In this document: positions 5,545 to 5,972 of the stretch, one piece after another
Layout of the letters: every line of letters begins with the position of its first letter
Numbering within the stretch: the first letter of the stretch is position 1
Origin: an uncultured Clostridia bacterium
GTDB taxonomy: Bacteria; Bacillota; Clostridia; Christensenellales; Borkfalkiaceae
Length of the DNA: 64,000 nt
Direction: 5' to 3'
NCBI GenBank assembly: GCA_930989535.1
Contig: CAKNLK010000007.1
Span: 39,581-103,580 of the forward strand
Translations under genes and position numbers: made by a program
The notes under the pieces: model-generated
Told to the model about the DNA's origin: nothing
Databases searched by the model: none
Seen by the model: the letters and a program-made list of their open reading frames with translations, nothing else

Positions 5545-5972
5545 CGCTGTTTCTCCCGAGTGTTTTGCGATTTCTTTTTTGAAAATTTTCTCGCGCAAGG
5601 AAAATCGCATTTTTCCGCAGCGCAACCCTATTTGGCAATCCCTTGCCTTACGGAAGGGGTGAAAGCGACGCGCATATTTTTGGTGTGCCCTAAAAAAGCG
5701 CGTCGCTGAGGGGAAAACCGCTCGGGTTTCCCCTCAAATCGCAGAAATTCGCAGCTGTCAGCTCAGCGAGAATTTCGCGAGCTAAATAAACTTGCTGCGC
5801 GTGGCAAAACGACGCTTTTGCCTAAGCGCACCCAATTTGTCGCATACCTGCGACCTGAGCGGGTGAAGTTGCGCGATTTTATAATATGTGTGCCCTATAA
5901 ATCGCGCAACGAGGGCAGAGCCCTCAAAATCTCGACTTTTTGTTTCATCAGCTTGAAACAAAAAGTGAGAAT
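5545..5972. repeat. Two tandem complete five-hairpin units (forward orientation)
   Basis: This gap gives the clearest view of the repeat family. Unit 1 has H1 5599-5616, H2 5634-5647, H3 5664-5707, H4 5708-5735 and H5 5744-5776. Unit 2 has H1 5803-5822, H2 5839-5854, H3 5868-5910, H4 5911-5925 and H5 5935-5966. Every stem differs between the two units, yet both arms change together. H2 is GGCAA/TTGCC in one and GTCGC/GCGAC in the other. H5 is GAAATTC/GAATTTC in one and ACTTTTTGTTTC/GAAACAAAAAGT in the other. Loops are kept, including TGTGCCC-like in H3 and TCAGCT in H5. H5 of unit 2 ends six bases from the pcrA stop codon. Confidence 0.9.

Follow-up and report, generated by a model that had tools for sequence, protein, structure and literature searches.

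Five-hairpin intergenic repeats of Borkfalkia and its relatives: covarying stems that may be rewritten as DNA

The double-hairpin elements of fungal mitochondrial DNA are intergenic hairpin repeats that are thought to be mobile, and in Allomyces their stems carry compensatory changes. These elements are organellar and have one or two hairpins, whereas the bacterial units described here have five. The integron attC sites are core sites that bound gene cassettes beside an integrase. The hairpins of IS608 and of REP elements have a one-sided bulge, as does the fifth hairpin (H5) of the present units.

In the accessible text of two papers, REP, BIME and REPIN elements are palindromes of 20–40 bp with a GTAG or CGTC tag. 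They are described there as intergenic and of high copy number, mostly in co-directional or convergent gaps, close to 3' ends and often in opposite orientations (PMC3733652, PMC3116915), and as sometimes supplying a stop codon (PMC3733652). The present units are likewise intergenic, lie mainly in co-directional and convergent gaps and are near 3' ends. Unlike the single REP palindrome, each unit has five ordered hairpins over about 190 bp, where the stems vary and the loops stay. The H5 feet read TCAC, TCTC or TCGC; the REP tags are present in few of the 161 feet found among 277 units (GTAG in 2, CTAC in 5, CGTC and GACG in 0). REP elements are moved by their own transposase, a REP-type Y1 protein flanked by repeats, whereas the two Y1 proteins tested in the genome that carries the present locus are of the IS200 type.

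The hairpin elements of sponges are organellar intergenic repeats of one or two hairpins with conserved stems and variable loops, as described in the accessible part of PMC2800124, and in this respect are the reverse of the Borkfalkia-type units. Template switching can rewrite one arm of a hairpin from its partner in a single event, which produces a multi-base compensatory change (PMC8794818, accessible part). The cases described there concern RNA genes in phylogenies, whereas here the hairpins belong to dispersed repeats, wobble pairs are rare in H3 and loop inversion is nearly absent.

The initial annotation knew of no named element of this design, and this still stands. The window, i.e., the whole 64,000 nt stretch analyzed, has no Rfam match to the units at gathering scores; the sole match is a glycine riboswitch elsewhere (positions 56698–56796, minus strand, 57.1 bits). 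A search of positions 900–6100 at E values up to 5 gave two chance-level matches only. No described element of this design was recognized in the literature covered, subscription papers and preprints being outside that coverage.

Hairpin units in the window and in related genomes

The gap between ligA and pcrA (about 5540–5972) contains two tandem units of approximately 190 bp, each with hairpins H1 to H5 in the same fixed order, as the initial annotation had described. These occupy positions 5588–5780 and 5796–5970. The initial annotation had also estimated about 11 units for the window, and a count with covariance model R1, which covers H1–H4, gives 11 (Table 1). Three additional weak R1 matches, at 5708–5832 (minus strand), 15664–15781 (minus strand) and 15665–15690, are parts of or antisense to these units. 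The H3 arms are intact in seven of the ten uncut units. All ten H3 pairs are formed in the units starting at 5588, 5793, 1464, 1073, 61830 and 61443, and nine of ten in the unit at 3043.

Table 1. Coordinates of hairpin units and their parts in the window
Feature	Positions	Strand	Remarks
Unit A, H1	5593–5623	+	Loop TCGCAT; read from sequence; R1 match 5588–5735
Unit A, H2	5626–5661	+	Sequence and R1
Unit A, H3	5664–5707	+	Arms AGCGACGCGC / GCGCGTCGCT; pairs 10/10
Unit A, H4	5708–5735	+	GGGG type; R1
Unit A, H5	5739–5780	+	Bulge on 5' side; read from sequence, bulge also family-wide
Unit B, H1	5796–5830	+	R1 match 5793–5925
Unit B, H2	5831–5865	+	Loop ATACCT; sequence and R1
Unit B, H3	5868–5910	+	Arms GTTGCGCGAT / ATCGCGCAAC; pairs 10/10
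Unit B, H4	5911–5925	+	GAGGGC AGA GCCCTC type; R1
Unit B, H5	5930–5970	+	Ends 2 nt from pcrA stop codon (5973–5975, minus strand)
Unit, H1–H4	1073–1248	-	R1; H5 onward to about 1028
Unit, H1–H4	1464–1613	-	R1; H5 onward to about 1425
Unit of diverged subfamily	3043–3181	-	R1
Truncated unit	3316–3443	-	H3 left arm, then H1-like piece and repeat R3; H3 right arm missing
Unit with repeat R2 inside H3 loop	15419–15542	+	R1
Unit with repeat R2 inside H3 loop	15742–15888	+	R1
Unit head-to-head with 61830 unit	61443–61617	-	R1
Unit head-to-head with 61443 unit	61830–61974	+	R1
Unit cut at window end	63945–64000	+	R1

Other repeats are associated with the units. Repeat R3, whose first hairpin is H5-like, is found on the H1 side of several units (about 1270–1390, 3205–3310, 15285–15400 and 61645–61775). 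Repeat R2 (about 15531–15658 and 15853–15979) is at the same H3-loop position in several units, where it replaces the inner part of the H3 right arm. The loop of an H5 hairpin at about 16045–16155 is interrupted by a foreign insert, and locus L202 has a similar case.

The window belongs to a genome of 2.12 Mb in 36 contigs (G000). Its LigA protein is 95% identical to that of uncultured Clostridia of chicken gut (locus L018) and 73–78% identical to those of Candidatus Borkfalkia species. A blastn search with the ligA-pcrA gap gave 62 matches in G000, and nhmmer with the two units gave 79 hits in the window and 31 other stretches; 64 of these hits were parsed. The initial annotation had proposed a covariance model and a search of this genome and its relatives. 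Model R1 was built from 30 units, and its search of G000 gave at least 141 matches at E 0.01 or better among the best 150 candidates. There are 128 non-overlapping unit matches in 420 kb of G000; unit length is mostly about 185–230 bp. Alignments A3 and A4 each comprise 150 matches, the best of 155 and of 213, respectively. Removal of overlapping, short and identical matches left 277 distinct units from eight genomes; one unit included from genome G064 has no usable H3.

R1 matches are present in 17 of 81 genomes of the family (G000 included) and in 6 of 18 genera. In the sister genome G121, which contains locus L018, 119 matches reach E 1e-4. Among 196 genomes drawn from across the class, R1 matches G000 itself, one more genome of the same family and one other at 28 bits. 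Genome G298, from another family, has three weak matches (27.5–28.2 bits). In our reading, the units form a hairpin family of Borkfalkia and its relatives that is REP-like and non-autonomous.

Pairing, loops and alleles of the stems

Covariation was analyzed in 40 units: 39 were picked by length and parse, and one further unit was added. In this alignment RNAalifold predicts 31 pairs, and 25 of these show double-sided changes, as compared to 20.9 in shuffled alignments (one of 500 shuffles reaches 25). Double-sided change is present in all 24 pairs of H3 and H5 (10 in H3, 14 in H5). Pairing is maintained in 94.7% of cells, against 68.9% after shuffling (reached in 0 of 500) and 39–54% in slid controls. 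The covariation score is 0.686, compared with 0.217 for shuffled and 0.10–0.17 for slid alignments. The count of further pair types, one of five measures, shows no excess (47 vs 52.5 in shuffles, 495 of 500 reaching it). Four units have MFE z-scores between -3.4 and -6.5. The stem changes are thus compensatory beyond chance, as the initial annotation had held.

A functional RNA is usually proved by covariation. In these units covariation is very strong, but the H3 wobble test points to DNA copying. RNA accepts G-U pairs, and usually does not accept A-C pairs. The main wobble count was limited to H3, since H1 and the outer H2 stem are variable in register. H3 could be read in 229 of the 277 units, and the 207 with at least eight of ten pairs were counted. 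The 2070 cells consist of 2005 Watson-Crick pairs, 11 G-T, 14 A-C and 40 others; the innermost pair accounts for 30 of the 65 mismatched cells. As a control, 31 distinct tRNAs of G000 have 44 G-T and no A-C in 652 pairs. The G-T share is 0.5% in H3 vs 6.7% in tRNA (Fisher p 1e-18 for the G-T share, 3e-8 for the contrast). G-T pairs in H3 are thus rare and no more common than A-C, unlike those of tRNA, which argues that RNA pairing is not what keeps the H3 stems.

Stems H5, H1 and H4 of G000 units likewise have no surplus of G-T pairs. Isolated mismatches amount to 4 G-T and 4 A-C beside 923 Watson-Crick pairs in H5 (56 G000 units) and to 2 G-T and 9 A-C beside 732 in H1 (61 G000 units), and H4 has 4 G-T and 2 A-C in 160 cells. 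Among 120 cells of the outer H2 stem there are 16 G-T, of which a single column accounts for 15, and no A-C; this RNA-like wobble is contrary evidence to a DNA-copying reading, if that stem is real. An early set of 60 copies had 14 A-C vs 2 G-T, which would fit an RNA on the other strand, and this strand polarity was dropped when the 207 stems gave 14 vs 11. Our reading is that exact complementarity in the H3 and H5 stems is maintained at the level of DNA. Alternatively, rare and nearly equal G-T and A-C could reflect selection for DNA cruciforms on both strands.

The loops are constant, as claimed originally together with the near-exact complementarity of the changing stems, and they are directional. 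The H3 motif reads forward in 214 of 229 units and is found inverted alone in none. Of 277 H5 loops, 162 are forward, 1 is inverted and 114 are unclear. The single inverted case (L166:10481–10615) has a normal foot and bulge. A seemingly inverted H4 at L170 was taken for an opposite-strand match. Loop inversion is a mark of arm-to-arm template switching, and with 0 of 214 readable H3 loops only inverted and 1 of 163 in H5, its near absence counts against arm-to-arm templating. The H5 bulge is one-sided: in 158 of the 161 H5 with a foot found (of 277), one to three extra bases are present on the 5' side. Such a conserved bulge is hard to square with unrestrained copying of arms.

That the stems differ between copies was correct. 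They are not freely variable, but are drawn from a limited set of recurrent alleles for each slot; 88 G000 units have 40 distinct 5' H3 arms. The alleles of H1–H4 are mutually linked into subfamilies (z 6 to 17), while H5 alleles vary independently of those of H2 (z 0.8) and show a weak association with H3 and H4 (z about 3). The initial annotation had concluded from compensatory change that structure is kept. The H3 wobble counts do not bear out a structure kept as in an RNA, and much of the change looks like whole-allele exchange between dispersed units.

Turnover between sister genomes and placement at gene ends

Comparison of G000 and G121 gave 35 pairs of unit sites. Five with flanks shorter than 200 nt, seemingly repeats, were dropped, leaving 30 shared sites with flanks of at least 200 nt that are 82–96% identical. 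The likeness of the units at these orthologous sites is nearly lost. The H3 arm is identical at 2 of 21 sites read in both genomes, as compared to 0.84 under random re-pairing (1010 of 5000 re-pairings reach 2). Alleles are the same at 6 of 30 sites for H1 (3.76 random), 6 of 17 for H2 (4.13) and 7 of 17 for H4 (5.59), and the likeness in H1–H4 is reached by 562 to 1476 of 5000 re-pairings. H5 alleles are the same at 6 of 22 sites vs 2.45 random (103 of 5000 reach this). The repeats at gene ends thus turn over almost completely between sister species, while at the compared sites the element remains present and in the same orientation. Both sets of loci were selected for carrying units, so that site persistence and the gap shares given below are biased estimates. 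Turnover with persistence raises the question of what moves the unit and what it does to mRNA ends.

Individual units provide further detail. Units L222:8211 and L121:2103 are near-identical, but the base of H3 is formed by TGTC and GACA in one unit, and by GTTG and CAAC in the other, with the same loop except for one base; the GTTG/CAAC member also has one A-C mismatch. Two recombinant units have the left half of one subfamily and the right half of another, joined in the H3 loop with the stem broken. In genome G076 one H3 allele is common to 11 of 13 units inspected, while H1, H2 and H5 vary. In locus L018 the two tandem copies of an H1 depart from their counterparts at window positions 3100–3560 at identical paired positions, which suggests concerted change.

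The pcrA-ligA gap is 28–127 nt in 20 of the 25 loci with both flanks found (L019–L045), and L040 alone has an R1 match there. Over longer time, there is thus gain or loss of unit sites. In the more distant relative L079, hairpins resembling H5 lie at either end of the pcrA-ligA gap, and elsewhere in the locus R1 has three weak matches (20–29 bits).

Gene calls used for placement are home-made, with exact stops and approximate starts. Of the 128 G000 units, 75 have their H5 side towards a gene stop and 31 towards a gene start. In 18 the neighbor on that side is another unit, in 3 it is an edge, and one unit is inside a called gene. The distance from the H4 end to the stop is 47–56 nt in 41 of the 75, about the length of H5, and H5 therefore abuts the stop codon. 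In units facing a start, H5 often adjoins the ribosome site in the sequences inspected. Single units in co-directional gaps have a strong orientation bias, 42 to 9 (p 3e-6). At loci chosen for carrying units, they occupy 73 of the 151 gaps between co-directional genes, 10 of the 29 between convergent genes and 4 of the 24 between divergent genes; in the window alone the values are 5 of 21, 0 of 6 and 0 of 7.

Of 93 gene ends with units, 25 have an intrinsic terminator in the gap, vs 44 of 116 without units, which is not a clear difference (p 0.10). A replacement of terminators by units was considered and dropped: within 120 nt of the stop, mutual exclusion arises almost by construction, and the whole-gap difference is not significant. 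At nine gene ends with a terminator before the first unit, H1 faces the gene in seven and H5 in two. Terminal inverted repeats were also considered and dropped. Among 20 head-to-head pairs the same H5 core is present in 6, and mean likeness does not clearly exceed that of random draws (285 of 2000 reach it).

Possible origins of the exact stems

The initial annotation had offered three ideas, a structured RNA, a non-autonomous element copied as single-stranded DNA and a product of snap-back repair. A mixture of the last two is favored here. The units are best explained, with a probability of about 0.5, as intergenic REP-like DNA repeats whose five hairpins are rewritten as DNA by conversion between units and by templating of one arm on the other. 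It is likely that the main stems are copied or rewritten as DNA rather than kept as working RNA. Conversion would swap alleles among dispersed copies; this would account for a likeness at orthologous sites that is close to random, for the recombinants and for the H3 allele that G076 units share. One stem arm would template the other, as in template switching, which would explain exact arms without wobble; copying, and not selection on pairing, would then make the arms exact. The conserved loops and the H5 bulge may be read by a putative structure-specific protein, which would spread the unit as folded single-stranded DNA or guide recombination. Units may build up after stop codons because insertion is tolerated there, and a stable hairpin perhaps also protects the mRNA 3' end. 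Several results count against this explanation. They include the H5 alleles, which are somewhat more alike at orthologous sites than random, the other slots being slightly above random means; the conserved bulge; the near absence of loop inversion; and the fact that neither a target duplication nor a clean empty site at base resolution could be demonstrated for the units. The orientation bias and the position of H5 at stop codons would also fit a selected 3'-end function.

As a structured RNA, the units would be 3' untranslated elements, read from H5 to H1 after the stop codon, that stabilize or terminate mRNAs, with stems covarying by selection on RNA pairing. Strong folding and covariation, the orientation bias, the abutting H5 and the lower share of divergent gaps with units agree with this, as does the wobble of the outer H2 stem, although that wobble is in the orientation used by the initial annotation. 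The H3 counts set against those of tRNA, the loss of the early A-C excess in the larger set, the terminator counts and the units facing start codons (31 of 128) all speak against it. The RNA reading is weakened by these results and is unlikely.

It is quite unlikely that the units move as single-stranded DNA by means of an H5-reading transposase of the IS200/IS605 or REP-associated (HUH) kind. The one-sided bulge near the H5 foot and the directional loop are suited to such an enzyme, and IS200-type transposases are encoded in G000. A Y1 transposase match is present in 23 of 40 genomes of the genus. However, none was found in the unit-bearing genomes G076, G106, G085 and G093 (drafts, 89–92% complete). 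Proteins of two of the four G000 Y1 loci were tested and score 149 bits with the IS200 model and 35–41 with the REP transposase model, for which the cut-off is 80. Near the four G000 Y1 loci there is one weak unit match (24 bits). An HUH partner, for which the initial annotation had proposed a search, could not be linked with the units, and the lack of a linked enzyme also counts against the favored explanation. A few ancestral units with fixed stems could instead have spread by ordinary duplication, so that the covariation is inherited and not newly made. The linkage of H1–H4 alleles and their recurrence are what this predicts. It is nonetheless improbable, to about the same degree as the transposase, in that H5 is only weakly tied to the other slots, likeness at orthologous sites is close to random, an H3 allele of its own dominates in G076 and a pair of orthologous units may have nearly all its differences in the H3 arms.

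Rewriting of hairpins as DNA may extend to a genome-wide system. Cassettes at gene ends would be kept for a long time, while a candidate enzyme that reads structure (the loops and the H5 bulge) would replace them from other copies and re-synthesize stems from partner arms. This extension is doubtful. If true, the 3' ends of genes would be overwritten repeatedly while folding is preserved. The family represents a natural warning case for RNA discovery based on covariation, and a natural assay of self-templated hairpin repair.

The stop codon of the adjacent gene can change along with the unit (L183, L107). At L126:2047, L124:952, L177:7247, L104:5112, L116:2047 and L176:3000, called genes appear to stop inside H5, which suggests that units may have altered protein C-termini.
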